From positions 1-35,994 of the forward strand of contig NW_003138320.1 in the NCBI RefSeq assembly GCF_000003605.2: a DNA stretch of 35,994 nucleotides. The letters are read 5' to 3'. The position numbers were made by a program, and so were the translations under genes. Each line of letters starts with the position of its first letter. The first letter of the stretch is position 1. This DNA is from Saccoglossus kowalevskii (Eukaryota; Hemichordata; Enteropneusta; Harrimaniidae). This document shows, piece by piece, positions 821 through 30,837 of this stretch. The notes under the pieces are model-generated. The model saw nothing but the letters and a program-made list of their open reading frames with translations. It did no database searches and had not been told where the DNA came from.

Positions 821-890
821 ATGAGAGTTCTGTTCTACGTGTTCGTGGTTGTGGTTGCATTCTACGAAGATACGCTGTCGCAAGACACGG
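821..890 (+). CDS. Exon 1: start codon and signal peptide
   Basis: Reads [20 protein letters not shown] followed by QDTG. A short basic n-region, a strongly hydrophobic run from residue 3 to about 14 and a small polar c-region make a good secretory signal peptide, with cleavage probably near the serine at residue 20. The donor is GTGAGT at 891, leaving phase 1, which matches the phase-1 acceptor of the Cys-rich exon at 4833. The ATG is chosen because it opens the signal peptide. The 3.9-kb intron to exon 2 makes the link inferred rather than proven. Confidence 0.75.
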
Positions 891-3800: not shown

Positions 3801-6800
3801 TCAGACAATAGAACGTTGTAACTCAGAATATTTCGTACATATAGTAAACTTAGTTATAATCCCCTACCTGATTCAAATGCCGACCACCGACGTTTCGGCC
3901 GCTGATTTTTGGGCGTTCCTCATACAAACATTTGAATAACCGCTTGTTCGTATTTATTTATTTATTCAATCCAGAATAAAGATTATTATTTTGCAAGGGT
4001 TATTGTTGTGCAAGTTTATTTTACCCACCCTGAATTTAAAATGTGTAAATATTTGTCATTTACACTTTCATAGAAAAAAAGAAACATGATTATATGTCTT
4101 GAAACTTATACAACCACTTTGTGATCATTGTAGTCATTAATTAATTAACGGAGGGTATAATTAGGGCAAAATGACAGTTGCATCATGACGAGATGCTACG
4201 GAAAATGTGATTGTTACGGTGTTTTGTTTTCAGGCCAAACTGACCAAAATATCTTGAATGGACTACGAAATATGCCAGTGTGCGCAGTCTGTTGGGCATT
4301 TGGTATTTCTATGTCTAAACAAACCATGGCACGTGAAACACTCTTTTTTTCAAATAGCAGGTGACGTATTCCAAAAATGCTCAATCAGTTTGAGTAAACT
4401 AAATGCGAGGTCAATCTACGAAGCTTGGCGGTTTTACAAACGACACTGTAAACGCAATAATAATTCACGGATATTTAATTTTGCAATTCTCACAGATAAT
4501 ATAAGTAAAATCCGCTAATTTAAATGCATGTGAATATATAAAATACGATAGCTCTCATTGTTTTCTCCCAGTGAAATTGATCAAAACTTCAAAATAGTGC
4601 TGTAATTCAGTCTCTGAGGACAGTAATTGTAAAACGTGTGTCATGCTCATTTTGTGTTTTGAAACGTAGGCGTCAAACAACGAATCAAAATGTTCGATAA
4701 ATCAGTAAACGAGATATTATGTTTTCATCGCTATGTGTCTGAATCAATACACATTGCCCAGTAAATATAACTTTGTTATTCGCTGTAAACTCATTTAATT
4801 AAACAGATGACACTTATCTTTCTCTTTTACAGACATATTCTACAGTTGTCCGTCAGGGATACCGTTACTATCAACAGATGGCAATCCAGTAGCCTGCAGT
4901 AGAAGTGGTTGCGGCGCATGGTCCGCAGACCATTTCTGTTCCAGTGGTGTATGCTGCCCTCTATGTAGCAACGGCAAAAGACCATATTCGTTTTGTGATC
5001 AGGCGATATGCGCAGATTTTGTATGCGCGGGATATCCTAGTGCCGTGTGCAAAGCCGATAAGTGCGTGTCATGTGAAATAGTCGTATTTGACTCGGTAAC
5101 CCTCGAGGGCATACGGTGTCCAGGTAATCTGATCCTTCTCCATCCACATTATTCAAGTCCTCTCGCACCGTTTTTCCTTGAATTCGTCGCACTGGACCCA
5201 TCTAACTCATTTCTAATCCACGGAAGCACTTAGTCGCTAGAGGGCGCGCAAAGTGTATTGCATGTTTTTGTAACGTACTAGTACCTTTTCTACAACTATT
5301 ACTCTCTAACTAACTACGCCTGTGACAATACTGGTGTAGTCAGTTAGGGTACCATCGGAATTGATTTATTATCCCAGTTTTGCACATTTTTCTTGCTGTA
5401 TCTTGAAAACTATTTTTTTTTCAAAATCGCCAACATTTTTTTGACAAGGTGTGGTGATCTGGTTGGCGATCCGTTGGGAATGCAAACAATCATGTTGTTG
5501 GCCCGTGACCGTACCAGCCTATCAAGATCGAAATCGGTCCAAACAATAGTAGACCGGTAGAATAAACAGCTCGTTGCCAAGCTTAACGTTACTCAGATCA
5601 CAGTCCCTCTATCTGATAGAGGGACCGTGCTTAGATTGAACTGACTTCAACACTTTCTCCACGAACTTTAAGACTTAGTAAATTTGAATGATTTATGGAC
5701 TTGAACTTTTGAACGCTTTTGGCATTCGGAAATTCTGTGCCCTTGACTCAAAAACAACATTTTAACTTTGAGCACAGACACTCAAGCAGGGTAGAATGAG
5801 ATATGTGCGAAATGTTGCCATGGTGATTATGGTAGGGCAGGAATTGTTGTTCAATTTTACCACTTAACTGCTGGTGTGACCCGGCTGTGAAGATTGAACA
5901 AAATCGCCCCCCCCCCCCGCGACGAAAAAGCTACCAGAATTTCCAGGTGAAATTTCTCGACAACGAAGAAAGATATCAAATAATAATACGTTAGGTACAC
6001 TCAAGTTAAGTAGAATGAGATATGTTGCTACATTTGGCACGAAGGTAGGAAACATGGTTTTGAGTTGTTGTCATGGCAACAGGTTTTCATAACGTAATCT
6101 GCACAAAGAAAAAACAAAGAAAATCAGAAGAGTTGATACGTACATGAAGACAGACATACAGACAAATGTAATCCCAGTAGTGCTGGTCGCCAATAAACAA
6201 CTCAGTGAACAGTGGTGAACAAACCCGTACAATCGAGTCCTCGAAAATCTTACGTTGTCATTTTTGTGGCCAAAATAAAAACACTTGCTATTTAGTGACA
6301 GAATGGCGGTAGCACGAGTAGCAAATGTGTAATGATTATTTAGTGAGTTACGTGTGTCGGTTTGTTTGTTTGTTTGTTTGTTTGTTTAACGCGCGGAACA
6401 TCCTAATCTCGTGCCATTATTAGCACGTTAACACATTTCTAATCTACCGCTCGTCACTACCGTCTCTGTATTATAAACGTTTTTCTCTCACAATTGTCAG
6501 ATATGCATGATTTTACGGCTTTTATTAACGATACACATATGTGATTGTAGCAAAACGAGAATTATTAGCATTTGGTTGCTATGGATTTCTATCTAATACA
6601 AATATGGTTCGTAAACTTTGACTCATAATTACCTAAAAGAACCCTATAAAATATACACGACTGTTTTCCGTTGCCATGGAAGCGACTTTTATATTATTTT
6701 ATATTATTTTATATTATTTTATATTTTATATTATTTTATATTATTTTATATTATTTTATATTATTTTATATTATTATAACATAATAATAATTCTTTTTAA

Positions 6801-9800
6801 TTTCTAAATTGCCCAAATTTGGAATGATTTGCTTTATCTGAAGATGAAATACTCATTTTGTCAAAAAATGTTAATTACTGCTTATTAGGATCGTACGGCC
6901 ATTACGACCGACCGTCCGAATGTTGTTAATTTATGGTTAACCTATACTTGCGAATAAGACCCGGCACATTTTCATAACCTCGTAATCACACGAAGAGTGT
7001 CATTTGATAACACGAGGTGTTACATCACGTGGCCATGGAACGGAACTTCCGTTTTTAAACGTTCAGCCTATGAATATGAAACGAAAACATTTATGATTAG
7101 ACTCCCTCACAAATTACATGAAAAATGACAAATGCACATATGTTTATTTAAATACAGAAAACTACTGTGTATTAGAAGATGGAGAGATTGCTTTTGATGG
7201 GGAGCAGTGGATGGACGGATGTCTCAGCTGGTAAGTAGTCTTATTGTCACAATTATTGATGCACCTGTGTCTCGAGGTATACACAAGTGAACCCAGAATA
7301 AATACATCTTATTGTTATTGTTCATAAGTTCATAATAAAAACTACTTACTAATTATGGTTTCGATAATTTGTAAGTATCCTAAGCTATGTTACAATATAC
7401 TCTACGCTACTTTGTCGGCTTTTGTCTTCATAAATTTATCTCCCAGACTGAATTAGACCATGTAGTTCTCGTTATTCTCGAGTTGTTAATTGTCTTATGT
7501 ATATTCAATATATTAAAGAATGGTGGACTTCGCGTAACGCACGCGCGAGAAATTGTCTCATATGAACAAAGATGGCGACTTTGTCTGTTGCGCAGACCAA
7601 TGACTACAAACTGAGATGTTATCGAGCTTCTTCTGTGATTGGAAGGTATCGAAGGAGTCGGCGGAGGTAATTAGTGCACGTCGCGCACAGGTCGAACTCG
7701 TGATTTCCCTTAGAAGAGCGCATTGAAGTATGGGAAAATCAGTGTTTATCAAGAACACGAATGACGCGCATGCGCCCTTTATCGCCCTTTAACGGAGAGT
7801 TTAATGTGCGTTTGTTAACATGTCTTTTTAGTCAGCATGGTATGTAGCTAATAGACTTTATAGAAATACATGGTCGACGAAATTTCGTTGAAAGTGAGAA
7901 AACTACGCAATATTTTCTTGGCACTCAATCCATAAATAAATGTCACATCTTTGTTACAGCCAGTGTGAAGTGGGGGTACTGACTTGTACTGATGAACGTT
8001 GTCGTAAGTACCGCACGCCATTGTACTATTGTCAAGTGCTTACTTTTTATCCTGTGTTCGATATTGAATCTCTGCAAAATTTGAAACTATACAAAACTAG
8101 ATTATTGCTGAAAACAAACCTTAAAGAGTAGGTAAGAAAGAAGACCTAACATTGTTGCTGCTGGACGAAGTGCTCAATGTTTCAAGAACGGCTGTATCTT
8201 TTGATATTATTTATGGTTAACAACGTTCAGTTCGCAGTATGCGAGGCAGACATTTTCCGATTAAGTTGCCATGACAACATTATAATTCATATAATTTCAA
8301 TTTTGCACTTGTATATTATTCACGTAGTAAATGCTTTTGAATTGACGAAAATAGCGTATGAATTATTTGACAAATCTGCAATTCAAAATGTGTGTGTACT
8401 TGTATTACAGTATTAACAACTTCAGGACCAGAAAGATGTAAAAAGTATTATTAGTATACAATAATTTTATATCTATATTACAAATTTAGCCAAAATTATT
8501 AACAACATTAATGAATTAACATCAGGTACTGTGATAACAAAAACAGTCACTCTAGTTCATGTTAAGGTAGAAGCCTACACATAAATTAAAATACCCACAA
8601 TTTATTCATTTTGTAATAAAATGTACTCCAAGGCAATACAAGGATATTGACCTAAAAAAGTTGGGGTCACCATCCTTTTTTTTTCGAGAAAATGGTGGTT
8701 GTGTTTTAGTCGCCAGTCGCCATTTTGTCACTATTATAACACTTTTACCATAGGTTCCTGTGGCAGAGATATTATGCAATATCTCAAAATTTAGCCTGGG
8801 GACATAGGCTGAAAAAAATCATATATTGTTAATGATGGAGTACCATTTGTTGTTCTGAATTATTTAAACAATCTGGGTTTTAAAAAGTGTCAACAATTTT
8901 TCTTTAACATTGTGTTCCATGGAATTGTTCTAAAATAGCACTTTTCAAGAAATATTAGGACACATTTCTCAAAAAGCTCAACTGTAACACACAAAATAAT
9001 GCCATTTCATTGTACCATGGGACATCAGCTTTATGACTGTACATAATAAACTAATAAACATTGTCATGCGATTTATGACCAATTTTGTCAAAAATTATGA
9101 CGAGGCTTCTACCTTAAAACTCCTTTCCAATAAATAGCGCCCTCCAGCGACAACGTGTTCCTATGACGTAACTAGGTAACACGGAGGCCGTTCAGAGCGT
9201 CGATATCGTTTTATACTGTAGTCGTCAAATTAAAGAAAATCCGAGACGACGAACGTTCATACAACCAAACAAGCACAATGGTCGATTAGAACGACATTGC
9301 TCTTACATCAGTAAACGTAATTTTTGACGTCATTGCAAGAGGGCGCAATTTATAGAAATGTTGTATTACTAGTATATGCTCATGCTCATGTTTCCCTTTG
9401 TTTCTTTACTCTGTAGCTGTCGACGAGTGTAGTACTGGGACACATACATGTGATGTAAATGCAAACTGTACTGACACTCCCTCAACGTTCGAATGCCGCT
9501 GCAATCAAGGCTTCACGGGAGATGGCCACCAATGCCAAGGTAACCCGTTGCATGGGGTCCGTTGAAGACGATGACGTAGAAAACCGTAAAGTGCAATCAC
9601 TATTTTCTCACCGCGTCTCACGTCGCCCGTTTAGTCGCACGCGACATGTTGCATTGACGGATCAAATTATTCAGTTAGTTGATTTCGTAGAAAAAAAAAC
9701 TATTCTTGAATAGTGCGTAACGACCATCAACCTAATTGTTTTGATGAGTTGATGGTAATTACCTTTGCAGAAGTATTTTGCCATTGTTCTAATCAATGTT

Positions 9801-15800: not shown

Positions 15801-18800
15801 GAGGGTGAGGTATTCTTTGCAGTCGTTACTTCAATTGAAGAAATGAATTAATTAGACGATACCCTGACAATTGAAACATGTACATTGAGATGGCAGTATG
15901 CAGAGGTGTACAGTTCTATAACGACAGCAATGATATACTGTATTTCAAATTACAGATATAGACGAGTGTTTGGGGTCAAATGACTGCGACACTGATGCAT
16001 TATGCATCAATTTACCTGGTTCTTACTCGTGTAGCTGCGTTCAAGGGTTTTATGGCGACGGGATCACGTGTCAGGGCAAGTCAAACAAATATTTGTTATA
16101 TGTAGACATTAGTTAACGAAATATTGCCTGAATAAGACCAGTCACTATTTACAGCTGTCATACACCATGGCTGTAGTCATTTAAATGCAGTTCTAATAAT
16201 ACTAACACAACTAAAACGCACGTTTCCTAGCAACACGTACTTATCCTGCCCACATGGTCAGCCATGTGACGTGTTATTTATTCATTCTGCACAAAACAGT
16301 CACCTATTTCATCCTTGCATATAAAGCATTTGACTGAATGACATACCTCGCCTTTTGTTAATAGTCTCACGGTATCCATATTTACAGATATTGACGAATG
16401 TGAGCTTGATGTCCATGACTGTGACCTCAATGCCCTTTGTATTAATAGACCAGGTTCTTTCACGTGTCAGTGCAAAGCTGGCTATATTGTTGATGGTTTC
16501 ACCTGTGTGGGTAAGTGTGGTGGGATGGGCAGGATGCGTAGATCTGTGACCAAATTGACGTATAATTGTTATTTTTAAACGTATACCAATGAACAACTCG
16601 CGGATTTACACACGGAGACCCTTTTGAGATCAACACAAACACGGTAATCGATTACGCAGACATGTATCAGCAGACAAATAAATCAACCCAAACCCAGCTG
16701 TTGATTATTTTTTATGTAAATTCATATTTACTACTTGCATGTTTTACTTATGACTTGTTCGTTCAAATGATGTTGTTGTTTCGGAGCAAATTACATGAAA
16801 ACCTGTTTAAATATTTTAGTGATTCTGTAAACATATTTATTTCAAGACTCAATTGTCGTGAACATGTGTTAAAACAAAATGTATAAATATATAGCTATAC
16901 ATTTACAGGTGGGGTTCAGTATATTTGAGAAGTACTTCATAGGTATTATCTGTTCTACTTTAGACATCAACGAATGTGTGACTGGCGAACACAATTGTGA
17001 CGCTAATGCTTATTGCACAAACACCATGGGCTTGTTTAACTGCACATGCGCAAATGAATATATCGGTGATGGCATCAATTGTAGAGGTATGATGAAATCA
17101 ATATCTTTTAATGAAATAATTTACAATTAAATCTAAGTGTGGTATAATTCTTACTGATATACTGTCTCATGGCTGGGCTCCCATTCTTTACCTATGTTAT
17201 CACGAAATTAGGACGTTTCCAGACAATTACTGTGCTATGCTGGCTGCCAAATATTATTCCTAGTAGTTCAACCTGATTTACCTGCACAAACACAAAATAT
17301 AAACATATTTCTGAATATTATCAACTACTGATTCATTCACAATTGCTTCATAGCTCACTTAAAACTATTTATACAAACTTCTATGTTATAGCAATGGCCA
17401 CCATTGACAGGTGTCCCTACGACTTCCCACTTCTCATGTCCAGTGATGAGAGAATTATAAGCTGTTCCAGGACCAGGAAATGCACCATGAAGAATCCACT
17501 GACTTATTGTTACAGGGGTCCATCCGGTAGTGGTTGTTGCCCGGTGTGTCCGGATACCGGTAAAAGACCAGGTACCTGCGAATCTGATGTATGTGACGGA
17601 TTTGAATGCAATGGATATCCCAACGCTGTATGCAAAGCCAATCCCTGTGCGGACTGTCAACCAACAGCGTATGATCCGTTGACTTTGAAAGAGGTTCATT
17701 GTTCTTGTACGTATCTCCATTAAATCCTCGTTTTTTCAAGCTTTTCGAGACATTAAATTCAAGATTAGCATCACTGCTGTTAGTATTTATTGTACAGTAC
17801 TATAATAGACAGTGTACTTCCTGTTGATTACAATTGTTTCAAATAACAATAATTACAATTTAGTTGTTTCACTTCAACAATACTATTCTGCGTACGTAAA
17901 GCTGCCAAAAAGGCAACTGCCAAAAGTTGCAACTGCATTGTGATTTCCATATAGGGTATACAGACGTGTATAAAAAAAAGTAGAATACATAAAAAACAGA
18001 AGTAAAAGGAACAAATAAAACATGACAAATACATTAAGTTTATAAATTATTACACAATGAATTCAAACCACTAAGATATACGTTAGTTGAACTAAACACT
18101 TTCCCATATTTGCATCACGTTAATGTAAACTTACGTTAATTGGAAATTACGCTATATGTAAAGCAGTTCCACTTGAATATTGCAATAATTGAAGTTACCT
18201 AACAGTGCGGAGTATTTATCACTGTTTAGCAATATGTCATGTAATGTAAATTTTTGTATATCCGTACAATCTTTTTTATGTCCAGAACAAATTAATTCAA
18301 TCGCATTCATAAACGATATTGATCGATGTTTCCAACCCTGATTCGCATGATTTGCACAGCACGAATTCCGTTTTTCGCATTCAATTAAACCACTGTTCGT
18401 CGCTAAAAACTTAATTACTTTTATTTAAAACCTAGTTTTATACTGTGATTGACTTGTAAAAGCAAAGCAAATAGTAAACGTCGTTCACCTTTTGACTCAC
18501 TTAAAATTAGTTCCCATTTATGCCTGTTTTTACACGACGGTTACTTACTAAATAGTTTTAATAATTTTTTGAAGTAGGTAGAAAATGTAATTGTTTTTCT
18601 TGATAAGGTTTCCCTACCTACACTGTTCTAATTTCAAATCACGTCACATGTCATTGTTATCCAGTGAACTGCAACTCAACAAATGGTATTGAATACAGAC
18701 ATGGTGATAAATGGATAGACAGTTGTCTAATATGGTAAGCATAACCACATCTTTCGCCGTTCATTATTCGTTTAATCATAGTCCCTCTATCCCCGGTCTG

Positions 18801-21800
18801 GAAACATCGTCAGTGCTATGTTTCTTTTTAACTTAGTTGTTTATTCCAGAATTCAAGCTTTTTCACATAATCTTTTAATCAGGATATCTGTATAAGGTCA
18901 TATTTTAGCCGGCGAGTAGTTCTTTAATTCATCTATTTTACCAGCAACGAAACAAAGTTTCATACCTTTATACCCAGAAACATTTCGTGTTTAATTTTTG
19001 GGTGATTGAAATGAAATTTTATTTACCCTACTTCTCAACGCAAAACCAATATTTGTCTTCGATTTGGACATTTTATAGTCGAAACATATTAAAAATTGGT
19101 GGACTGATTTGTTATGTGTCACACCGCATTTTATTTACGTTAAATTGAGCGATTTTTATGGATGCTATTCCGATAGTAAATGCAAATGGCGACGTTTTGA
19201 AATGACAATGTACGCTATTCAGTGCTAAAACATCATTTATATACAACATACTTTACATCGTTGTTGTATAGTTGACTTAAACTGTTATGAACCCCCAAGA
19301 ATCAGAAATATCATAGGTTTTTCGATCGACCACGTTAACATGATGAACGACGCCATTTTGACAAGATTTGTTTAGCGATGTCAGCATGATGTTACGCGAA
19401 GTTTTTTCCCTATTAAACTAGAAGATGAACATAATTCCCGATATTAATCGTTACATGGCAGGAACTAGATGTTTATGAGTTGGTAGGCTGGTTTTGATAC
19501 ATATCAGGGTTCAAAACCCCCTAATTTCATAGTGCTAATTCTGTTTACGTTGTGGTTGCCCGAATTTGAAGTCAAAGTGAAGTCGTACAATAAGATATCG
19601 CTTTGCATGACGGTAAATTTGCCGATTTTAATGAATATTCTGACGGTATTGTATTCTGTCTGACTTCCCGACTCCCTCGGCCCGGATTTGAGCCGTTTGT
19701 TTACCCGCATCGCGGTTCGAGACAAAAGAACGCTAGTTGTTTCCAGACCGGGCATAGAGAGACTTATAATACAAATACATTGCATAATTCATATGATATC
19801 TGCTTTCATTTCAGCGAGTGTAACGATGGTAACGCCGTTTGCTCTGACCATCTGTGTGGTAAGATCTTCTCAAATTACATGTAAACATGATGAACGTATG
19901 ACTCACAATTATTAGTTCTAAGGTGCAAAGGAAATCGAAACTTAACTGATATCATCCCATAAGCCGTACATGAACAAGCGATTGCCTTCTACACTTATTA
20001 ATAGTCTAGGTGAAACACACAAAGCGCATTTTCAATACAATTTCTGGATTAGATATCGTCATTGATATATATCGTGATTAATATTTAATCAGCAACACTT
20101 TTTCACTTTAGAATCCAGTGGAGGTATACTTTGCCCTGACTCAGATCCATTGCATTATGACGGAATTGTATTCAACTGTTCGTCACATGATTGCCCAGCT
20201 GGTCATTATTGTAGACATATTGCACCCAGCCAAGGAGTATGTTGCCCAGCTGGTAATTATTATATTAGTAATGACATTGAACTTTTATTTCAATAATTAT
20301 ATTTGCAAGTACTTTTTTCAACGTATTTTAGCAACGTAATATTCACTCAAAAACGGGAAATGTGATTAGTTTAAGCATTGTTATTTGCCAACAAGATGAA
20401 TGGGAGTATGTATCTGAATTAGTATATCATTTCATGGTTATGCCAATAAAATAATAACAACATGACACATGATTTATTTTTCTTCTCAAACAGTAAATAC
20501 GACAGTTGAATGTATCTATGATTGGACGGAATGGTTCGATATAACGACACCCGTTGATTCACTTGGCGATTTTGAAACACTATTTATGTTATGCAAGAGT
20601 GGGATTAACCCTATGTGTGACAACACGACAGTCATCGATGTTCGCACCGTTGAAGGCAACCGTCCTGCCCAGACCACGGGAGAAGTGTTCTACAGTAACG
20701 ATGCAATTAACGGGTTTATTTGCCGTAATCAAGACCAATTTGATGGGCAATGTGAAAATTATGAAGTGCGTTTCTGCTTCGTAGGTATGACGGAAGCGCA
20801 TAAAACTTGTCCCCTCTATAATCTAGGCTTTGTAGATTATTAAGTATGAATGGAAAAAACATTCATGCTTCTAGTGAGATCTCGCGAGGGGCGCGTTTAG
20901 AACGCTTCTGTCATTGCTGGCAGCGCGTCGTTTTCACTATTTCTTTCTGATTTCCCATTTCAAACAAATAACAAAAAATAGTTTCGGATTTTAGTATTTT
21001 TGCTTTGAAAAATGTGATAGTATACTCGATTTTGTAAACATAATATAATAATACATCTCCCTTTGCAGTCGTGACTTACAGTAATGGTGAATATTAGCTT
21101 ATATAATTCACTACGATCATGCATCTCTGTTTAAACAATCTAACAATCTTTTTAGGTTCTGAAACAGTAATTAAACCCGTATATTGCCAAACCAATAGCA
21201 CGGCATACGTGGAAGGAGAGGAATGGTTAACAGGATGTACATTATGGTAATTAAGATATGACATTACGCACGTTATGAATATTATTATATGCAGGAATAT
21301 GTTTGGTTTGTTCTCGTATGTACCATGTTATAACGTGTGTCAGATCAACCACTACATTCGACAAATTTCATTTTAAACATTACTTGATTAACATGAAATT
21401 GCATTCTGTATGAATTTAGAATGTTCCCATTCAAGTGGCCTGTAATCATACAGTCACTCGAGGCACGTAACTGTAGCCATGACATTCTCTGGTGACGTGG
21501 CTGCAGAGATGTAATCATTCGAATGAAGTCGGGATCTACATACTTGCAGTGCTACTGCAAACATATGTTTTGGGTGTACGAACCATCTAAAACAGTTACT
21601 AATCTGTAGTAGACTACTAATGTCCAATCGGTTTATATTTCAGTCGATGTACAAATGGAAGCATAAACTGTACGGATCAGTATTGCGGTGAGACATTTAT
21701 TTCTTCTATGGTTTTTTCCCCACATCCCACGTGCATTGAAAATAAGCTTAAAATCGTTCACTGCAATCACCCGTTTTAAAAGTGTTACATAGTTCCTGAT

Positions 21801-24800
21801 TTAAATATGAGTCATCGACATTTTAGTATGAAATATTAATAAGAATTTCCCAATTATTTGGAACAAACTTTTTAGAACTATACCTGATTTTTTTCTCTAT
21901 AAGAAAAACGAAACGAGTTTTGACGAAACATTGTTATCATTGGAACAAATAAGAAATGGTTGTAAATAGCTATTCATAGATGATTGACACATTTTATGGT
22001 CAGTTAACATTTCCTTTCTAGTGGGTCAGCAAAAATAAAACCGTATGTCAAAACTCAATGAAATATGGCATTACGGTTTAATTTGTAACCAATTACCTTA
22101 ACACGTGCAACATATCTCTGTGACATGTTGTTACGTGTGAAGCATGCGTGCCCCGGGATTCATTCAAACGCAACGGAGAGGTGTTGCACAAAAGCCAAAT
22201 CATTTCACAGGACCGTTAGATCGATAAATGGATTTATGCCCTGTTGAAACACACAGCTCGGTTTGTCATTTCGCAAAATATCAAACGGCTACTAAGTACA
22301 TTTTTTTTCTCAAAACTATAATAGCATAAAACAAAACTTTTCTTGTTTTAGGGGATTTGTACAATATGTGCGATAGGGGGACACCACTCATCGCTGATCA
22401 TGTGACTAATTCCCTGGTATTTTGTAAATTGGAGATTATTCATGATTGCCCCGCTACTCATCTTTGCCAAGCAGTTAATATCAGTCAGATTCAAACAGGA
22501 ATATGCTGTCCAATTTGTAAGTATGACGTCATTATTACATAATGTATTACATAATATGAGTTTCTTGCATATTATTTCAAATATACCTAGAACGCGTTAT
22601 TTGCTGCACACAACGTACTCGTATGTGTTCCAGCTATGAATAATTCATCAGTATACTATTAGATATGCACATAATCAGAAATTATTATCGTAATTTTAAA
22701 TAATGTCCACATTTGGACTGTGCTCGAAGCGCTAAAGTCCTGTCGCGACCTTCGTTCGAATATTGTGTAAACAATCTATGTTACATGCGTTGCGTGCATT
22801 GCATTGCATTAGACCCACATCAAATGCGAACTCTGGCGCTTTAAGTTAGATGTATTTTTTTTAATTTGAATGGAATAATAAATCATTTAATTCCGTTGCA
22901 GCGACATATGATCAGAATTGTGTAAATGGTACATGGACGGATTGGTACGATCTTGACAAATCCTACAATGAATCAGTGATTCCTGGTGACTTGGAAGTAT
23001 TACAATACCTTATCTCGTCATCTGGGCATGTTTGCAAGAATCCTTTGTCAATTGACGTGCAGACTGACGAAGGTATCCCAGCGTACAACACGGGCCAGAC
23101 ATTCTATTCTTTCGACGTCGTCACTGGGTTTGTTTGTCGAAATGCCGACCAGAATGGTGAACCGTGTCTCAACTATCGTGTACGACTCTGTTGTCCAGGT
23201 ATCTACACTATAATACAGGGGCAGGAATTAATTTGTAGCATTATGTTTACGTGATATGAACAATCGGAGACTTCAAGTTGTTCGTAACTCCCCACCCACA
23301 ATGGTCTCCCCTCAGCCAATGGTCACTAATACACCCCCGCCTGCTACTACTCCCAATTACGCCTCTGTCTAACTGTTCCTATTTCCCACCCCGCAATGCA
23401 GACTTTATTGCCTTACCACCCCGCATTGCAGACTTTATTGCCTTACCACTTGAAGATACAGATTTAAATTGTATACCACCCACTTGCTATGATACCTACG
23501 TACATCATTGGAAAAAAAAATGTTCTGTGACTTAAAAAATGAAATATGACGAAATAGCATTTTGTGGCATATGTCTTTCTTGCTAGCATTTTATTTCAGC
23601 TAATCCATAATTTTGCTAGTTCACGATTTTTTTAAAAGATTCTATATATACATTATCAGTTAAATTTTATTATTTCATACCTTGGGCCAATTTCTTTAAA
23701 CATGCGTGTAGTTATTGCTATGCGTTCTACAGTATATAGAGGCTGTAATCTGGAACACTATACTTTGTAAATTTGTAGATGACTGTGTCACAGAACGCCC
23801 TCACTGACTGACTTTTTAAAACTAAAAGTCTAGAATTCCCTCCAGCGAGTTGATGATTATGAACTACCGCTCATTCTTTTAACCAAGCAATAACGCAGAG
23901 TCGTTGCTGCCTGCCCACATACACATACACCTCCCAGTGAAATTGTTTTCATTAAATGCAAGTTTCCTTAAAAAGTTTTTCCTTTGATATTTAACTTTTT
24001 CTGTACAAAGTCTGATCTTGTGACTTACCACTGGGGCAGTACGTTTTACTCCTCCCCCTCCCGCTGATTAAATTTAAATTTGCCTGCACACTGAAAAAAA
24101 GTCTACAAAGACTTTTCGCGCAAACAGATTTGTTATCAGTACATGATAATACTCGTCACGTTGAGGCGAAGTGTGAGCGATTCTGTGGCGAGAGACGCAC
24201 TGTGCGACAGGATTGACGTGTTTTAAAGCGCGGCTCCGCAATCCCAGGGATTGCACCAGTGCGTCATTGGAAATGTAATGACGTAGCAATGTTTAGACAG
24301 ATGCAACATCATTTACGTTTCTAATAAATTTAATTTATTCCGTAGAACCATCTTTCTGTGACGAGGACATGCTCACGCCATGGTTTGATTTGGACAATCC
24401 GTGTGGGATGGACACGCACGATATCGGTGACGTAGAATTATTGTCCGTCATACGGGATGAATACCCTCTCGAATCATGTGACTTCCCGACGGCAATTCAA
24501 GTGCACACCGTAGATGGCGTTCCAGCTGAGCAGACGGGTCAAGTCTTTAGATACATGGACGTAAAGCACGGGTTCATTTGTCGTGACAAGGACCAGGAGG
24601 GTTTCGATGATTGTCTGGACTACAAGATAAGATTCTGTTGCAATTATGCTCCCGGTGAGTATTTGCAGGTTGACGGTATATTGTCTCAGTATCTCGCCTC
24701 AGTATCTCGCAAGTTATGTGAACTCTCTTGCTGGGAAAAGTGAAAGAAATTGTGTATGATTTGTATTCGCGTATCTGAAACAAACGTAACGTTACAGCGT

Positions 24801-27278
24801 GCTTCAAACGAATTCTTTTTACTCGGATAGTAATCTCAATTTTGTTGCGCAATTTATTTCACCGGAAATGCAAATGCCGTCTACTTTTCAAGATTCTGAA
24901 CAATTGTCATTTCTATTCTACCAGTAACCAAGGAGCTAAGCTATGAATATTCAAAAACTGCGACTCACGAATCCATGTAGACCCTAAAATGTACTTAGCG
25001 AGTACAATTACGCGAGGGAAAATAAAACCCAAGGGCAAAACAGAATATACATTTGACCGTTATAATGATTTTTTTTCAAACCACTGGATATTAAATAGTT
25101 GAAAACATGATTTCGGTGTATTTTTTGCCTTCTTAAAATTGAAGCATTGTTGTCGTTCGTGTCCGTGTGATAGCAAAAGTGATACTTAAATCACAGTCCC
25201 TCTATCACTATATAGGGACTGTGCTTAAATGCACTGTATGACCAACGGCGCAATATTGTTACGGTCCTCTTTTTCGCTGCTAATCTAAATGCACCGTGGT
25301 TTTGCAATCAACCCTGGAAGGTGAAATGATTTTCTTTTGCGTGGCAATTCATTGCCCATAGACAGAATGCGTCGCAAATAAAGCTTACACACGTACATGT
25401 TTTGATATGTACATGACGTTCGTTTCAGTCATGAAATGTGTTGTAAGTTTTAACTGGTCTTTTTTTGTTTTTCAGCAGAATCGTTACATTTTTTGTGTGA
25501 ATAATAACTAATTGTTGACCTGTAGTTGATCTGAAGTGCAACATTTTTGCGTTACTCATTCGTACGAAGTATATTTCAATTTATGGACGACTTCCTTTAA
25601 AGCATACAATTGAATAGAGAAAAACACGAATAATGAGAGATTAATTTAGTGTATACGTGCTGTTTTGAGACTCAATTCATTCAAGAATATAAGATTTGCC
25701 TTAACGAGCGTAAAGGTGGTTCTTTTCTTCAGTTGATTGACGTTTATTCCCTATTTAATACTTACAATTTCTCAGCTGGTTGTACAGGAGAACTCATTGA
25801 TAGTAAAAACTGCTCCTTGTATCTCGACTTTATTATTTGACTGTATTATTAACAAACTACACACAACACGATTTACACACACAGCACTTGTTAAGGTTGG
25901 TAAATACAGTACTCTCGACACAGTAACACTGACCCTTCATCTTTTTATGTGTTTATGAAGTTTAATAATGTATACGATTTAAAAAATACTATGCATTAAA
26001 AAATGTTAATACATTCTCCTGAAGTCTGTATTACGCTACATTCGTAACCTTTTCACCTAGTCCTGTTTAAAGTCTGCACTGTTCTTCAGAAAACTGGAAC
26101 AAAAATAGCCATGAAAATTTACTCAAAATTTGTCAGTTGACCCCGAAATTAGGGTTTATTCTCAGGAATATTAAGAATATAAGAAAACGTTAATGTGACC
26201 CAAAGTGAGTGAATTTTTTTTTCTCTAACAAAATATAGTGAGTGAGTACAACGTATCGAAGATAATTAAAAAAGGTCAGTGCCCACTGGTTATCAGAACA
26301 ACGTTTAAGCAAATACGAGACACGGACGGCGAATTTGCATATTTTGGTTGTCAAGACGACAGAGACTGCGCAGAGACTCAGAAATGCTGCCCCAGCGGTG
26401 AATTTGGTACATTATGTATGGATGCGATATCCCCATGCCGCCATGACGGAATTGATTATCCACCAGGCTCATACAGACAACATTCATGTAACTTTTGGTA
26501 AGTGGGAAAATGCGTATAGGAATGGAAATCCAAGTAGATTAAATATCTTCTATTTTTTGGCATTATTAATGATTTGACTACGTGAAATGTAGAATTATGT
26601 TTATTTTATTCATCAACCCTAATCTTGTCAAATCCATGTACTTTTTGTTAAAACAGTTCTGCTTTTATGCTGATGATATTTCAAAGTTCCATCATAAATA
26701 GAAACATACTAAAAACAAAGTACAACACATTTATTTACCGGTACTTTCGAAGACTTTGCTTGATTTTCCGAGGGTTTCTGTTTTGGTATAAACTTGGAGT
26801 CTCCATTAAATTTACCATAAATTTTAACATTTTCACCACATACCTGTTCTGTTTTATACGATTTATCTCCTACTCAATTATTTGACACTTTGGGTATCAT
26901 TACGTGAGAATATCTATATGCATCTACTATATTAATTAGTAATGATAGTAGGCATAAATCTCTTTTTCGGAGTCTGCATTGAAATTCTCTTCGTCGCGCG
27001 GTACATGAATAACATTATGTATTTCAATTAACGAAAAAGACTTACATCCATGAACACTTCCAATGTCTATATTATGAGGGCGCTTTACATCCATATATCG
27101 CCTGCAATCTCCACGCGTTTGCTATGTGATAGCATTTACGAGAAGAGTGGAATCAGTTAATGTTGTACCTACTCTAAGCATTGGATAATAACTGATCATA
27201 TTCTTATTTTATGTGATTTTCAGTGGTTGTGAGGATGGTGTCTGGGAGTGTACGCAAGAACAGTGTGACGGGTATTGA
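821..27278 (+). CDS. Multi-exon gene for a secreted EGF/VWC/lustrin/WxxW/WAP mosaic protein (31 exons, whole locus)
   Basis: Predicted extracellular protein of 1523 residues, built from 31 exons listed separately. Exon sizes sum to 4572 nt, divisible by three, and all splice phases agree: phase 1 between modules, phase 2 inside each VWC. Approximate residue order: signal peptide 1-19; Cys-rich 24-120; VWC 121-159; EGF x6 160-402; Cys-rich 403-507; EGF x8 508-830; Cys-rich 831-935; VWC 936-973; lustrin 974-1020; WxxW 1021-1117; VWC 1118-1162; lustrin 1163-1217; WxxW 1218-1316 and 1317-1419; WAP plus VWC 1420-1523. There is no transmembrane segment after the signal peptide. The module families are typical of matrix, mucus and shell or cuticle proteins. 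A structural or adhesive secreted role is inferred; binding partners are unknown. The exon chain is my manual reconstruction, so small extra exons could be missing, mainly in the long introns. Confidence 0.82.
891..4832 (+). other. Intron 1 (3.9 kb)
   Basis: Long AT-rich first intron holding the MITE-like element at 2232-2659. I saw no exon encoding a recognisable Cys-rich module. A 129-codon open frame at 3550-3939 has no domain I recognise and no Cys pattern like the rest of the gene; I treat it as chance. The acceptor is a pyrimidine tract ending in AG at 4831-4832. Confidence 0.6.
2232..2659. mobile_element. MITE-like element with 31-bp terminal inverted repeats
   Basis: The 31 bases at 2232-2262 (starting GTTTATTTCACGAACTTAAT) are the reverse complement of 2629-2659 with one mismatch. 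The 428-bp element encodes no convincing transposase, so it is a non-autonomous DNA-transposon-like insertion in intron 1. I cannot fix the target-site duplication or superfamily from one copy. Confidence 0.6.
4833..5123 (+). CDS. Exon 2: lustrin-like / Cys-rich domain
   Basis: A 291-nt phase 1-1 exon. The first half reads [18 protein letters not shown], then ends in a GVCCPLC cluster, the pattern of lustrin-type cysteine-rich repeats. The second half has [11 protein letters not shown] followed by VVFDS and a closing Cys. It is paralogous to the exons at 12366 and 17392 (same CCP cluster, same AVCKA..C..C tail), giving three copies of this module per protein. Donor GTAATC at 5124. Confidence 0.85.
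5592..5636. repeat. 31-bp palindromic hairpin with near-identical 7-bp flanks
   Basis: The segment 5599-5629 starts CACAGTCCCTCTATC and folds on itself: arms 5603-5613 and 5615-5625 are perfect complements with a one-base loop. It is flanked by CTCAGAT (5592-5598) and CTTAGAT (5630-5636), which resemble a target-site duplication. A second copy with perfect flanks lies at 25192-25223. Confidence 0.6.
6361..6388. repeat. (TTTG)n microsatellite
   Basis: About seven consecutive TTTG tetranucleotides in intron 2. Confidence 0.9.
6687..6776. repeat. 10-bp AT minisatellite (ATATTATTTT)n
   Basis: About nine tandem copies of a 10-bp unit ATATTATTTT, with one unit shortened near 6720-6730. It lies in intron 2, is pure AT, and is likely polymorphic by slippage. 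Confidence 0.9.
7158..7230 (+). CDS. Exon 3: VWC domain, first half
   Basis: A 73-nt exon entering in phase 1 and leaving in phase 2. It encodes [20 protein letters not shown] followed by CLS and the TG of a split Cys codon. The pattern C...DG....GE.W..GC..C is the N-terminal part of a von Willebrand C domain. It is completed by the exon at 7960. Donor GTAAGT. Confidence 0.85.
7231..7959 (+). other. Intron 3
   Basis: 729 bp separating the two halves of the first VWC domain. No other feature seen. Confidence 0.6.
7960..8003 (+). CDS. Exon 4: VWC domain, second half
   Basis: A 44-nt exon in phase 2 to phase 1, reading [15 protein letters not shown]. It supplies the C.C..G...C....C part of the VWC fold. 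The corresponding exons at 19815 and 21644 are also exactly 44 nt, which supports the call. Donor GTAAGT. Confidence 0.82.
8004..9416 (+). other. Intron 4 (1.4 kb) with MITE and duplication breakpoint
   Basis: Holds the 556-bp MITE-like element (8562-9117) and the left edge of the large tandem duplication at about 8827. No exon recognised. Confidence 0.6.
8562..9117. mobile_element. 556-bp MITE-like element with 14-bp perfect inverted ends
   Basis: Begins TTAAGGTAGAAGCC and ends GGCTTCTACCTTAA, perfect inverted repeats of each other. The TTAA at both tips could be a TTAA target-site duplication, as in piggyBac-type elements; that is only a suggestion. There is no open frame for a transposase. 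Its right half recurs at about 12944-13237 because the tandem duplication starts inside it. Confidence 0.65.
9417..9539 (+). CDS. Exon 5: calcium-binding EGF domain A1
   Basis: A 123-nt phase 1-1 exon with six cysteines. It opens AVDEC (calcium-binding type) and contains [12 protein letters not shown], which fits the C.[DN]....[FY].C.C Asp/Asn-hydroxylation motif. It differs from B1 (13525) by a Thr/Ser change. Confidence 0.92.
10137..10253 (+). CDS. Exon 6: calcium-binding EGF domain A2
   Basis: A 117-nt phase 1-1 exon opening [16 protein letters not shown] and closing with SWDGQTCQG. The usual PGSYQC segment reads PGWYQC here; both B equivalents have Ser. All six EGF cysteines are kept. 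Confidence 0.92.
10654..10776 (+). CDS. Exon 7: calcium-binding EGF domain A3
   Basis: A 123-nt phase 1-1 exon, [18 protein letters not shown] through GTGLICEG. Its sequence follows the first B copy (14758) until the last dozen bases, then matches the second B copy (15682) there and in the following intron, so it is probably a recombinant exon. Confidence 0.92.
10928..11047 (+). CDS. Exon 8: calcium-binding EGF domain A4, GC donor
   Basis: A 120-nt phase 1-1 exon, [17 protein letters not shown] through GDGITCQG. The donor is CAGG followed by GCAAGT at 11048, a GC-AG intron; no in-phase GT is nearby. The same donor occurs in B4. Confidence 0.9.
11361..11483 (+). CDS. Exon 9: calcium-binding EGF domain A5
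   Basis: A 123-nt phase 1-1 exon, [18 protein letters not shown] through VDGFTCVG, with the [12 protein letters not shown] hydroxylation-type motif. It differs from B5 by one silent change. Donor GTAAGT. Confidence 0.92.
11938..12060 (+). CDS. Exon 10: calcium-binding EGF domain A6
   Basis: A 123-nt phase 1-1 exon, [18 protein letters not shown] through GDGINCRG. It is the last EGF of the first array. It differs from B6 by Ser to Leu in the CTNTMG.FNC segment. Donor GTATGA. Confidence 0.92.
12366..12680 (+). CDS. Exon 11: lustrin-like / Cys-rich domain A
   Basis: A 315-nt phase 1-1 exon. It contains [10 protein letters not shown], a GSGCCPVC cluster, then [15 protein letters not shown] and [11 protein letters not shown]. 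It has the same module plan as exon 2 (4833) and is a recent duplicate of exon 20 (17392), from which it differs by nine bases and eight residues, with no silent site changed. Donor GTACGT at 12681. Confidence 0.88.
12681..13524 (+). other. Intron across the duplication junction, with truncated MITE
   Basis: Intron 11. Its left part (to 12942) matches the sequence after the second Cys-rich exon (17707-17968). From 12944 it carries the right half of the 8562-9117 MITE, ending in GGCTTCTACCTTAA, so the junction of the tandem duplication lies at about 12943. No exon is present. Confidence 0.8.
13525..13647 (+). CDS. Exon 12: calcium-binding EGF domain B1
   Basis: A 123-nt phase 1-1 duplicate of exon 5, opening with AVDEC-like sequence; because the preceding exon ends in T, the first residue becomes Ser (SVDEC). 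TPSSFEC replaces TPSTFEC. Confidence 0.92.
14237..14353 (+). CDS. Exon 13: calcium-binding EGF domain B2
   Basis: A 117-nt phase 1-1 duplicate of exon 6. It has DNFHC instead of DNSHC and the standard PGSYQC instead of PGWYQC. The intron after it starts GTAACGCAACGC, as after exon 6. Confidence 0.92.
14758..14880 (+). CDS. Exon 14: calcium-binding EGF domain B3
   Basis: A 123-nt phase 1-1 exon, almost identical to exon 7 except Ile to Val near its end. Its downstream intron differs clearly from the intron after exon 7, unlike that after exon 16. Confidence 0.92.
15383..15499 (+). CDS. Exon 15: calcium-binding EGF domain B2', extra copy
   Basis: A 117-nt phase 1-1 exon, [16 protein letters not shown] through SWNGQTCQG. 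It is an older paralogue of exon 13, with both coding and intron divergence, and is present only in copy B. Confidence 0.92.
15682..15804 (+). CDS. Exon 16: calcium-binding EGF domain B3', extra copy
   Basis: A 123-nt phase 1-1 paralogue of exon 14, with [11 protein letters not shown] in place of [11 protein letters not shown]. The intron after it closely matches the intron after exon 7 of copy A. Confidence 0.92.
15956..16075 (+). CDS. Exon 17: calcium-binding EGF domain B4, GC donor
   Basis: A 120-nt phase 1-1 duplicate of exon 8, with one Gly to Asp change (NDCDTDALC). The donor is again GCAAGT, at 16076, so the GC-AG intron predates the duplication. Confidence 0.9.
16388..16510 (+). CDS. 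Exon 18: calcium-binding EGF domain B5
   Basis: A 123-nt phase 1-1 duplicate of exon 9, same protein sequence. Donor GTAAGT. Confidence 0.92.
16964..17086 (+). CDS. Exon 19: calcium-binding EGF domain B6
   Basis: A 123-nt phase 1-1 duplicate of exon 10, with MGLFNC in place of MGSFNC. It closes the second EGF array. Confidence 0.92.
17392..17706 (+). CDS. Exon 20: lustrin-like / Cys-rich domain B
   Basis: A 315-nt phase 1-1 duplicate of exon 11 with eight residue differences and every Cys preserved: for example [15 protein letters not shown] versus [15 protein letters not shown] and a Lys-Arg-Pro in place of Lys-Thr-Pro. It leads into the VWC exon at 18665. Donor GTACGT at 17707. Confidence 0.88.
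17707..18664 (+). other. Intron 20
   Basis: The left 260 bp repeats the sequence after exon 11; beyond 17968 it is unique and AT-rich. No further feature seen. Confidence 0.6.
18665..18734 (+). CDS. Exon 21: second VWC domain, first half
   Basis: A 70-nt exon, phase 1 to 2, reading [20 protein letters not shown] then LI and a split Cys codon. C...NG..Y..GD.W..SC..C matches a VWC start. Donor GTAAGC. Confidence 0.82.
18735..19814 (+). other. Intron 21 (1.1 kb)
   Basis: Splits the second VWC. At about 18776 it contains CATAGTCCCTCTATCC, a left-arm-only relative of the hairpins at 5599 and 25192. Nothing else recognised. Confidence 0.55.
19815..19858 (+). CDS. Exon 22: second VWC domain, second half
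   Basis: A 44-nt phase 2 to 1 exon encoding [16 protein letters not shown]. Its length and Cys spacing equal the other VWC second-half exons. Donor GTAAGA. Confidence 0.82.
20112..20252 (+). CDS. Exon 23: lustrin-type Cys-rich repeat
   Basis: A 141-nt phase 1-1 exon with [20 protein letters not shown], then CPAGHYC and a final GVCCPAG. The C..D.PL..dG....C....C..G.YC.....G.CCP pattern is that of lustrin cysteine-rich repeats. It lies between VWC and WxxW, as in the cassette repeated at 21156-23198. Confidence 0.82.
20494..20784 (+). CDS. Exon 24: WxxW (mucin/CILP-type) domain 1
   Basis: A 291-nt phase 1-1 exon. Signature elements: [17 protein letters not shown], the [10 protein letters not shown] strand, [16 protein letters not shown] and ENYEVRFC. 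This is the WxxW repeat known from gel-forming mucins and cartilage intermediate layer proteins, where the first Trp is a C-mannosylation candidate. Unlike the other two copies it ends RFCF rather than RxCC, so a cysteine is missing. Several Asn-X-Ser/Thr sites are present. Confidence 0.88.
21156..21246 (+). CDS. Exon 25: third VWC domain, first half
   Basis: A 91-nt phase 1 to 2 exon encoding [20 protein letters not shown] then TL and a split Cys codon. The GEEW..GC element identifies the VWC start. Donor GTAATT. Confidence 0.8.
21644..21687 (+). CDS. Exon 26: third VWC domain, second half
   Basis: A 44-nt phase 2 to 1 exon encoding [16 protein letters not shown]. It has the same size and Cys spacing as exons 4 and 22. 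Donor GTGAGA. Confidence 0.82.
21688..22351 (+). other. Intron 26
   Basis: 664 bp, AT-rich, no feature recognised. The acceptor is a T-rich tract ending TTTTAG. Confidence 0.5.
22352..22516 (+). CDS. Exon 27: lustrin-type Cys-rich repeat
   Basis: A 165-nt phase 1-1 exon: [20 protein letters not shown], then DCPATHLC and GICCPI. It has the same Cys plan as exon 23 but a longer linker. Donor GTAAGT. Confidence 0.8.
22902..23198 (+). CDS. Exon 28: WxxW domain 2
   Basis: A 297-nt phase 1-1 exon with the full signature: [49 protein letters not shown] and [11 protein letters not shown]. The closest internal relative is exon 24. Two Asn-glycosylation sites lie near the start. Confidence 0.88.
23199..24345 (+). 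other. Intron 28 (1.1 kb)
   Basis: Contains a 2 x 30-bp tandem repeat at 23386-23445. The remainder is AT-rich apart from a short GC-richer stretch at about 24150-24260. No exon seen. Confidence 0.55.
23386..23445. repeat. 30-bp tandem duplication, two copies
   Basis: Units 23386-23415 and 23416-23445 start CCACCCCGC and end GACTTTATTGCCTTA, differing by one base. The repeat is intronic. Confidence 0.85.
24346..24654 (+). CDS. Exon 29: WxxW domain 3 (first Trp lost)
   Basis: A 309-nt phase 1-1 exon: [52 protein letters not shown]. The WxxW motif reads LTPW, so the first tryptophan, the expected C-mannosylation position, is absent while the rest of the fold is kept. Donor GTGAGT. Confidence 0.86.
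24655..26238 (+). other. Intron 29 (1.6 kb)
   Basis: Contains the hairpin insertion at 25192-25223 and a weak possible alternative 3' exon near 25776. No further recognised module. Confidence 0.5.
25185..25230. repeat. 32-bp palindromic hairpin with 7-bp direct-repeat flanks
   Basis: The segment 25192-25223 begins CACAGTCCCTCTAT and ends AGGGACTGTG; the outer 10 bases are perfect inverted repeats. It is flanked on both sides by CTTAAAT (25185-25191 and 25224-25230), which looks like a target-site duplication. It is a sister of the hairpin at 5599-5629. Confidence 0.7.
26239..26497 (+). CDS. Exon 30: WAP domain plus VWC first half
   Basis: A 259-nt exon, phase 1 to 2. The WAP four-disulfide core reads [21 protein letters not shown], then LCMDAISPC. 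It runs directly into [18 protein letters not shown], the start of a VWC domain, closed by the split Cys codon. WAP domains are often protease-inhibitory or antimicrobial; no inhibitor loop can be judged here. Donor GTAAGT at 26498. Confidence 0.86.
26498..27223 (+). other. Intron 30
   Basis: 726 bp, AT-rich, with no recognised feature. The acceptor is TTTTCAG before 27224. Confidence 0.5.
27224..27278 (+). CDS. Exon 31: last VWC half and stop codon
   Basis: Enters in phase 2 to give [18 protein letters not shown] then TGA at 27276-27278. C.C.DG.W.C....C is the VWC second half, so the protein ends three residues after the last Cys. This stop, in frame after 31 exons, supports the whole model. 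Confidence 0.82.
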
Positions 27279-28715: not shown

Positions 28716-30837
28716 AGCGTCGCAATGTTATTAAGACATCGAGCGCGATTCGACAAACGCGAAAGTATTTCGGTGACATTTTTACGCTACTAATGTGCTA
28801 TACACATTTAATGAAGTAAGTGTATCTTAATTGAGCGTATGGTAAAATCCGGGGGCAGTACATAGAACTTGCCTAATGGGGACGTGCCCCTGAAATGGGC
28901 CTCTTTTTTTGGATTTTAGGTGTAAGTATCGGTCTTGATTTTGGTCAAGATAGGTAGAAATATCAGTAATATTGTTCCGATTAGTACTGTTTCTCATTCA
29001 ACAACCTAAATTACCTGTGTTAATAATGTGTTTTATGTAAGTGACAGAGGTGTTTCTATGGTCAAAATACATATTTTAATAAATCAATATACAATGCAAC
29101 TGTTTGCTTACATTTGCATATATTGGAGATGCGCTTCTAATAGAGCAGTGGGTAAAGGTTTTATTTGGAATAAACAGTGGTGACAGAAATTGTACTTTAA
29201 TATAAAGATGGGTATAAGTTTTGCCACTATCCAGGTATACTTTTGAGCTTTTGAGCACTCGGGAGTACCCAGCTTATGTATCAACTGCCCCCGCGGGGTA
29301 ACATGCAAAGTCCCATCTCGCATACGAAACTATGCTATGCCCCTACGTATCAAAAAACGTAGGATTATAGACTATAGCACATATGCGTGGCTTTAGAACG
29401 CCAAACAATCAACCAACCAAAAATAAAATGAAATGAAACGATAAACCGGTTACTTGATTTAACTGACATATACGAAATCTTATCGGATTAGGCACCATTG
29501 TCACGGTTTGCACGTCAACTAGAGTCTCCATTGTCGTTGGCATTTCATACTCACACATTCCTGTTATTAGGAACAAACTTGTCTTCAAATGCTTGGGGCA
29601 CTATTAATATGAAATCTAGGATTAATCCCACGTGAATGCTGAAGATGATAAAATACAAGACATGAATGTCAGCTCAAGGAAAAAAAACGCTCCTTCACGC
29701 AAGTTTCCCAAAATAAGAATATATTTAACAGATGAGGAAAACCACTTTCTTTCAATAAATATTGATGTCTCATCATTATTTCATTTTCACCGTGTTGTCG
29801 TTGTAAGGCTGTCCACGCATTTATTTTAAGGGAACAATTTTCTGTTTCACTTTTGTCAATCCAATTTGACATAGTTTTGTCCCACTTTAAATTACTATTT
29901 ATTATTCACAAGTATTTTGAAATTTGACGTAAAATGCATATTACAAATGTTTACTACCATTGTACTGAATATTCAGACGTACGTGCTTGTAACAGACACA
30001 TTTAAGTGTTTCCAGTAATTGATAACATGATTACATTATCCATATACTAGTACCTGCGTGTGGGGCAAAAGCATTTTCACCTGGAAATATATTTTAGAAA
30101 GTGTTTATGAGCAAAACATCAAATGATGCAATTCAAACCTTTCGCGAACCTGTAGAACAAACCTAATAAATGTAACAGAGTAATACATTCAAACTAACAA
30201 TAACAATTTGAAATCATTTACTTTTTGATATAATGAACGTGCCCGATATGCTGTACTGTGCTATTGTCTCGAATGCAATCTTTTCAAACACATTAGATTC
30301 CTGGAAAAAGAAAAACAGTAAAAAAAAGACATGTACGTCACAACAATGTCAGTCGCCAGATACTGGTCTTTAAAAATGCCATAAAGACTGACTCTATGCA
30401 ATAAGCGACTATTTATCAATTTAAAAACTATGACAGTCGACTGTATGGTGTATTCCATCATCCGAACACATAATGTCACGTTGCAATTACGACCTAATAT
30501 GTTAATATTCCCAAACTGTTTCAAATTTAATTCACTTGAATTGAACACAGTACCGTAATAATACACCATCATATAAGCTGTTCTCCTTCATACGGGTTCA
30601 ACTGCTACTCCATGGCAATGACAATTGACCGTCAAAAACGACAAATGATCAGCAGCGAAACGGTAACAAAGGTGGAGGAGGAGCCGCAACGGTAAAGACG
30701 AATGACTTGCATGCCTCATCAGTCAATCATCTGAAAAAATAATCGCATTAGATCACTTCTCGTTCCTCGGCAACAACTTCTCCTGCGTTCGTTAGTATCA
30801 CAAGGAATCGAAGTTGATTTGCGATACAGTCTGAGTT

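Follow-up and report, generated by a model that had tools for sequence, protein, structure and literature searches.

Background

Rods of the fibrillin type typically have a C6-x-D linker, and the TB domain is a further feature of fibrillin. A full VWC domain has 10 cysteines, the core of a WAP domain usually has eight, and the first cysteine gap of pacifastin is 9-12. An excess of symmetric phase-1 introns is a signature of exon shuffling.

A CYS domain reportedly makes mucus stiffer, and 13 CYS domains are described in a house protein of an appendicularian (PMC6861317); the 10 cysteines of CYS domains are described as constant from sea urchins to humans (PMC11207715). In limpet pedal mucus, EGF, WAP and oikosin/CILP-like mucin domains were reported in separate proteins (PMC7333891), and lustrin and VWC domains have been reported in linkage with ancestral pacifastins (PMC13388995).

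In the present study, we analyzed a window of 35,994 nucleotides from the hemichordate Saccoglossus kowalevskii (contig NW_003138320.1, positions 1 to 35,994 of the forward strand). An earlier note on this DNA had proposed a single long secreted mosaic protein built of named domain types, and this description holds, with a signal peptide and a chain of exons that runs to 27278. The product of the gene appears to be a single large protein, secreted and rich in disulfides, that consists of many small extracellular modules, with one internal block doubled; it is an unusual mix of familiar parts, and not a new kind of system. Among the matches listed in our full-text literature searches, none described this combination of modules and none had lustrin together with WxxW. 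No relatives were confirmed in viral_contigs (73 pattern stretches) or genome_contigs (52).

Exon chain and signal peptide

The gene model was built by a dynamic-programming search for exon chains, in which splice sites had generic weights and the residue composition was cysteine-rich, starting from the ATG at 821. Strict splice cut-offs gave just 18 exons with a different end point and were replaced by relaxed ones, with which the search returned 32 exons from the ATG at 821 and ended at 27278. After the weak exon 4234-4332 was dropped and five splice sites were reset from context, the final model (821-27278, + strand) comprises 31 exons with 4,572 coding bases, which translate into 1,523 residues and end in a stop codon. 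The 31-exon in-frame chain to a terminal stop and the 1,523-residue translation given in the earlier note were thus recovered, with the same residue and exon counts, in an independent rebuild. On 701-28000, with any ATG permitted, the real strand scored 353.9. The reverse complement reached 18.6, the highest of the 21 controls, and all 20 dinucleotide shuffles fell within 6.2-16.2.

The unedited search overlapped 31/31 of the final exons at an exon penalty of -7 (31 exons, 26 exact, 0 extra) and 26/31 at a penalty of -9. The cysteine-rich composition in the score is our own choice; with a generic composition, 25/31 final exons were overlapped at a penalty of -2 (15 exact) and 10/31 at -4.5 (5 exact). 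The 30 introns comprise 28 GT-AG and two GC-AG introns, and 26 of them are in phase 1 (P 1.8e-10 at a chance rate of 0.3), the four phase-2 introns lying inside the half-VWC modules. As in exon-shuffled mosaic genes of the extracellular matrix, 22 of the 29 internal exons are symmetric, with phase 1 at either end, so that each joins, or can be singly skipped, with no frameshift. Because most internal exons are of this kind, in-frame joining alone says little; the earlier argument that such a join goes beyond chance stands for the chain score, which is far above the controls, but not for the joining itself, which is cheap. The window resembles animal DNA and contains no N, its GC content is 32-39% in 2-kb steps, tRNA and Rfam scans of it gave no match, and ten other ORFs had no Pfam match at 0.01.

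The first exon is as follows (here and below, the basis of each call is in brackets):

821 to 890, + strand: exon 1 with the signal peptide (23 residues), phase-1 donor (hydrophobicity, donor)

Upstream of 4833, ten pairings of an ATG with a donor were compared, and exon 1 is the most hydrophobic of them. Signal-like first exons with a phase-1 donor were sought over 1-26.6 kb; three turned up (821, 1310 and 4258), none of which lies downstream of 4833. The signal peptide is the most hydrophobic 19-residue stretch of the protein, in which no second hydrophobic segment was found. When any ATG was allowed, the best chain began at 4185 and not at 821; this start was rejected, as it comes without a signal peptide and with a weak donor (-0.8). 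Since the score prefers 4185, the case for the signal-peptide exon is made by its hydrophobic core and its donor. The signal peptide of the earlier note is therefore retained on these two features, the chain score itself not needing exon 1.

Order and overall properties of the modules

The order of the modules is signal peptide, Lus1, VWC1, six EGFs, Lus2, eight EGFs, Lus3, VWC2, Lus4, WxxW1, VWC3, Lus5, WxxW2, WxxW3, WAP and VWC4, where Lus denotes a lustrin-like module. The order proposed earlier, lustrin-VWC-EGF(14)-lustrin-VWC-WxxW(3)-WAP-VWC, has to be revised at two points, as Lus2 (12366-12680) lies between EGF6 and EGF7, and the three WxxW domains are not uninterrupted but interleaved with Lus4 and Lus5. 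Given that the residue and exon counts of the earlier note equal the rebuilt ones, its model probably held Lus exons that were absent from its title. The protein is ~164 kDa, with 187 cysteines in 1,523 residues (12% cysteine), a pI of 4.1 (residues 21 onward) and 15 N-glycosylation sequons.

WxxW, VWC and WAP modules

The three WxxW domains are encoded as follows:

20494 to 20784, + strand: WxxW1 (Mucin2_WxxW 70.2 bits; mucin-5AC E 6.4e-6)
22902 to 23198, + strand: WxxW2 (Mucin2_WxxW 75.5 bits; mucin-5AC E 4.3e-8)
24346 to 24654, + strand: WxxW3, degenerate motif LTPW (Mucin2_WxxW 71.8 bits; mucin-5AC E 8.7e-6)

All three are above the Pfam Mucin2_WxxW cut-off of 22.4, and in a search of solved structures mucin-5AC chains were the best matches for each. 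The earlier count of three is upheld by these scores, with the qualification that the W-x-x-W motif itself is present in two of the three (WTEW and WTDW), the first Trp being missing in WxxW3. The domains have 6, 6 and 7 cysteines, respectively. A structure model of WxxW2, of low confidence (mean pLDDT 62.3), gave 20 PDB matches, none of them at E ≤ 0.001 and none a mucin.

The VWC and WAP modules occupy the following exons:

7158 to 7230, + strand: VWC1 first half, phase 1-2 (VWC 20.7 bits, below the cut-off of 27.6)
7960 to 8003, + strand: VWC1 second half, phase 2-1 (chain, Pfam)
18665 to 18734, + strand: VWC2 first half (VWC 22.5 bits, below cut-off)
19815 to 19858, + strand: VWC2 second half (chain, Pfam)
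21156 to 21246, + strand: VWC3 first half (VWC 31.6 bits, above cut-off)
21644 to 21687, + strand: VWC3 second half (Pfam)
26239 to 26497, + strand: WAP (six cysteines) and first half of VWC4, pacifastin-like (WAP 32.0; Pacifastin_I 26.5; VWC 15.8)
27224 to 27278, + strand: VWC4 second half and stop codon (chain)

The split VWCs of the earlier note are present as two-exon VWC-like modules, but all four are six-cysteine half-domains, whose two exons are separated by a phase-2 intron, and only VWC3 is above the cut-off, its best match spanning positions 1-44 of the 57 in the profile. VWC4 is closer to Pacifastin_I than to VWC, both scores being below cut-off (27.9 for Pacifastin_I), and VWC3 scores 17.3 with Pacifastin_I, also below 27.9. 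The locus thus resembles pacifastin/VWC multidomain proteins in its six-cysteine half-VWCs and in the Pacifastin_I score of VWC4, and differs from pacifastin in the first cysteine gap of the half-VWCs, which is 16-17 here. The presence of a WAP domain is borne out by a score above the cut-off of 20.8. Its exon has eight cysteines, of which the last two belong to VWC4, leaving six; with six cysteines and not the usual eight, protease inhibition is doubtful.

Lus modules

Five lustrin-like modules were found:

4833 to 5123, + strand: Lus1, 14-cysteine module with a lustrin-like half and an eight-cysteine half, phase 1-1 (chain, Pfam below cut-off)
12366 to 12680, + strand: Lus2, 14-cysteine module between the two EGF runs (chain, cysteine spacing)
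17392 to 17706, + strand: Lus3, copy of Lus2 differing at 8 residues (chain, copy comparison)
20112 to 20252, + strand: Lus4, lustrin cysteine-rich domain (Lustrin_cystein 30.2 bits, exon alone)
22352 to 22516, + strand: Lus5, lustrin cysteine-rich domain (Lustrin_cystein 27.2 bits, exon alone)

At the Pfam Lustrin_cystein cut-off of 27, the lustrin repeats of the earlier note are sustained for Lus4 and Lus5 but not for the N-terminal Lus1, whose first half alone scores 20.8 bits over the whole profile and whose whole exon gave no match, nor for Lus2 and Lus3, which gave no Pfam match as the whole exon or as the first half alone. With flanking sequence, the scores of Lus4 and Lus5 become 28.6 and 26.1, and inside a longer piece both are absent from the Pfam output. 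As the lustrin score depends on the piece submitted, the lack of a match for Lus2 and Lus3 is not strong evidence. Lus1-3 have 14 cysteines each, the first six with lustrin-like spacing and the other eight in a tail for which Pfam has no family above cut-off. Compared with lustrin A and other lustrin-domain proteins, Lus4 and Lus5 are alike by profile score and the Lus1 half falls below the cut-off, whereas Lus2 and Lus3 are unmatched and Lus1-3 bear the extra eight-cysteine half. A structure model of Lus2, also of low confidence (mean pLDDT 58.6), had four fold matches at E ≤ 10, none of them at ≤ 0.001, and a search of Lus2 against solved structures gave two matches (E 0.8 and 1.0), which were taken as chance.

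The 8 residue differences between Lus2 and Lus3 correspond to 8.5 replacement versus 0.5 synonymous changes. In this comparison, which was picked post hoc, the one-sided Fisher P for the replacement excess was 0.009-0.020 against synonymous sites and the two flanking introns, and 0.019-0.043 with all five measured introns, the ranges reflecting 9 or 8 changes. No such excess was seen in the six pooled EGF pairs (P 0.66).

EGF modules and the duplicated block

The EGF modules and the two tandem units that contain them are as follows:

9417 to 9539, + strand: EGF1, type a (Pfam EGF_3 46.4 bits, EGF_CA 33.2, cut-off 27)
10137 to 10253, + strand: EGF2, type b (chain, EGF consensus)
10654 to 10776, + strand: EGF3, type c, left side EGF9-like and right side EGF11-like (chain, site comparison)
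10928 to 11047, + strand: EGF4, type d, GC splice donor (chain)
11361 to 11483, + strand: EGF5, type e (chain, EGF consensus)
11938 to 12060, + strand: EGF6, type f (chain, EGF consensus)
13525 to 13647, + strand: EGF7, copy of type a (chain, EGF consensus)
14237 to 14353, + strand: EGF8, copy of type b (chain, EGF consensus)
14758 to 14880, + strand: EGF9, copy of type c (chain, site comparison)
15383 to 15499, + strand: EGF10, extra copy of type b, unit 2 only (self-comparison, chain)
15682 to 15804, + strand: EGF11, extra copy of type c, unit 2 only (self-comparison, chain)
15956 to 16075, + strand: EGF12, copy of type d, GC splice donor (chain)
16388 to 16510, + strand: EGF13, copy of type e (chain, EGF consensus)
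16964 to 17086, + strand: EGF14, copy of type f (chain, EGF consensus)
8827 to 12943, + strand: tandem unit 1, EGF1-6 and Lus2 (self-BLAST, alignment)
12944 to 17968, + strand: tandem unit 2, EGF7-14 and Lus3, abutting unit 1 with no N gap (self-BLAST, alignment)

The calcium consensus [DN]-x-[DN]-[EQ]-C is present in 12 of the 14 EGFs and the hydroxylation motif in all 14; EGF1, to which Pfam EGF_CA was applied, scored above its cut-off. With tandem calcium-consensus EGFs, C6-x-D linkers and one EGF per phase 1-1 exon, the locus is like the fibrillin/fibropellin-like calcium-EGF rod proteins. It is unlike them in that the EGF run is broken by a 14-cysteine Lus module, that the protein ends in WxxW-WAP-VWC and that no TB domain was found in Pfam scans of the pieces here. 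In the type-a EGFs (9417 and 13525), the first calcium ligand is lost, with Pro or Ser replacing Asp, because the splice-split codon takes its first base from the VWC or Lus exon. The two GC splice donors, at 11048 and 16076, follow both type-d EGF exons.

Units 1 and 2 are arranged head to tail and abut at 12943/12944, and their matching stretches are 93.9% and 97.1% identical. Their difference is 0-4.7% over 15 inner 150-base windows of the distal part (13 of them at ≤ 2.7%), the end windows being left out because the alignment extends beyond the copies, and 0.7-7.9% over 12 such windows of the proximal part. EGF10 and EGF11 differ from EGF8 and EGF9 by 14-19% at synonymous sites and are older EGF duplicates at the locus. 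Around EGF3, the sequence agrees with EGF9 at 36 of the 38 informative sites lying at or before 10757, and with EGF11 at 50 of the 52 past it; the switch point lies within 10757-10788, at or just beyond the 3' end of the exon (10776). The right flank of EGF9 aligns poorly with EGF3 and EGF11, so that on this side the assignment depends on how closely EGF3 matches EGF11. Judged by these sites, EGF3 looks like a recombinant. The simplest history that we can infer is that an eight-EGF unit came to be present twice, by duplication or as two alleles, and that one copy would then have lost two EGFs by unequal recombination.

Possible role of the protein and alternative readings

We consider it fairly probable that the product of this one gene is a very acidic secreted protein of ~164 kDa, modular and rich in disulfides, which was built by phase-1 exon shuffling and acts as a structural scaffold in the extracellular matrix, in mucus, in cuticle or in glue. 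This role is what we infer from the predicted protein, and the stiffening of mucus by CYS domains and the domains of limpet mucus cited above led us to it; the "matrix or mucus" protein of the earlier note is plausible in the same sense, given the classes of the modules. The two EGF runs may form calcium-stiffened rods, with Lus2 as a hinge between them, and the lustrin-like and half-VWC modules may be compact disulfide spacers or binding sites. The WxxW domains might provide weak cohesive contacts, as proposed for mucin CYS domains, and the terminal WAP domain might shield the material from proteases. The gene would have grown by phase-1 exon shuffling, and the number of EGFs would change by unequal recombination, one switch having been placed at or near an EGF exon end.

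Two other readings concern the identity of the gene. If it were a relative of gel-forming mucins with true CysD domains, the three strong Mucin2_WxxW matches and the mucin-5AC matches would be accounted for, and in these the domains do resemble those of mucin CYS/CysD proteins, a group that includes the oikosin and CILP types. However, they have 6-7 cysteines, against the 10 reported as constant (PMC11207715), WxxW3 has lost its first Trp, and their neighbours here are half-VWC, lustrin and WAP modules. Pfam scans of the pieces found no VWD, C8 or cystine-knot domain, TILa being below cut-off. Furthermore, Ser, Thr and Pro together peak at 37.5% in any 40 residues and no PTS region is present; with no Ser/Thr/Pro-rich stretch, the protein is not a mucin. 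Membership among gel-forming mucins was ruled out by the cysteine count and the missing PTS regions, and we regard it as exceedingly improbable. The model may instead fuse two genes, an EGF/Lus protein whose end would be at about 17.7 or 19.9 kb, followed downstream by a WxxW-WAP protein, since the domain content shifts at about 18-20 kb and phase-1 exons of adjacent genes would also join in frame. This is very unlikely in our view: the chain search, with any end allowed, continued to 27278, VWC-like and lustrin-like modules lie on either side of the shift, and the fusion was rejected on the missing internal signal-like exon, none with a phase-1 donor occurring downstream of 4833 in the scan for such donors.

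The one-gene scaffold is the reading that we follow, and within it the main doubt is the count of 14 EGFs, as the two blocks are near-identical and abut. All 14 EGF domains of the earlier note are in the chain, but as a run split 6+8 by Lus2 and in blocks that are near-identical copies; the number stems either from a tandem duplication or from a haplotype that was retained. In the latter case, which we hold to be possible but rather doubtful, the second EGF block would be a false duplication, with two haplotypes assembled head to tail and an allele of 6 or 8 EGFs with one middle Lus module. The abutting of the units and their identity favor this, and their range of divergence would suit heterozygosity, which occurs at such a size in some marine invertebrates. 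Within a single scaffold, false duplications have been documented both for adjacent copies and for exons, with gaps between the copies named as one sign (PMC9516828); no N is present in the window, although long-read assembly may also make gapless errors. The absence of a gap leans to a real tandem, and with the older EGF duplicates at the locus a true duplication would be in character. It is also conceivable, but quite improbable, that the repeated block is an unstable cassette of variable copy number, in which unequal exchange of EGF exons would alter the rod length while the Lus modules diversify under selection, as for a surface of recognition or adhesion that varies from one individual to another.

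If the chain and the tandem block are real, the locus would be a readable record of a matrix protein lengthening in whole-module steps, by phase-1 exon shuffling and unequal exchange of EGF exons. A real chain would also provide six- and seven-cysteine WxxW domains outside a mucin, which may help to ask what CysD domains do without the glycosylated regions of mucins, and a 14-cysteine Lus module whose eight-cysteine half matches no family. Should the second block prove to be an artefact of assembly, the locus would be a warning case of a haplotype copy inflating a domain count.

Neighbouring sequence

Downstream of the gene, two arrays of a 21-bp minisatellite with the same unit lie in opposite orientation at 31437-31992 and 34994-35994, with 22 and 47 units, respectively, within 5 mismatches of the consensus. 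An inverted pair of ~140 bp (31997-32134 and 34147-34270, 73%) is also present, and together with the arrays it resembles a foldback-type element that the end of the window truncates. An ORF at 30835-31149 on the + strand has a signal-like start and weakly resembles GABA-B receptor subunit 1 at its extracellular start (best E 0.033); it may represent exon 1 of the next gene.
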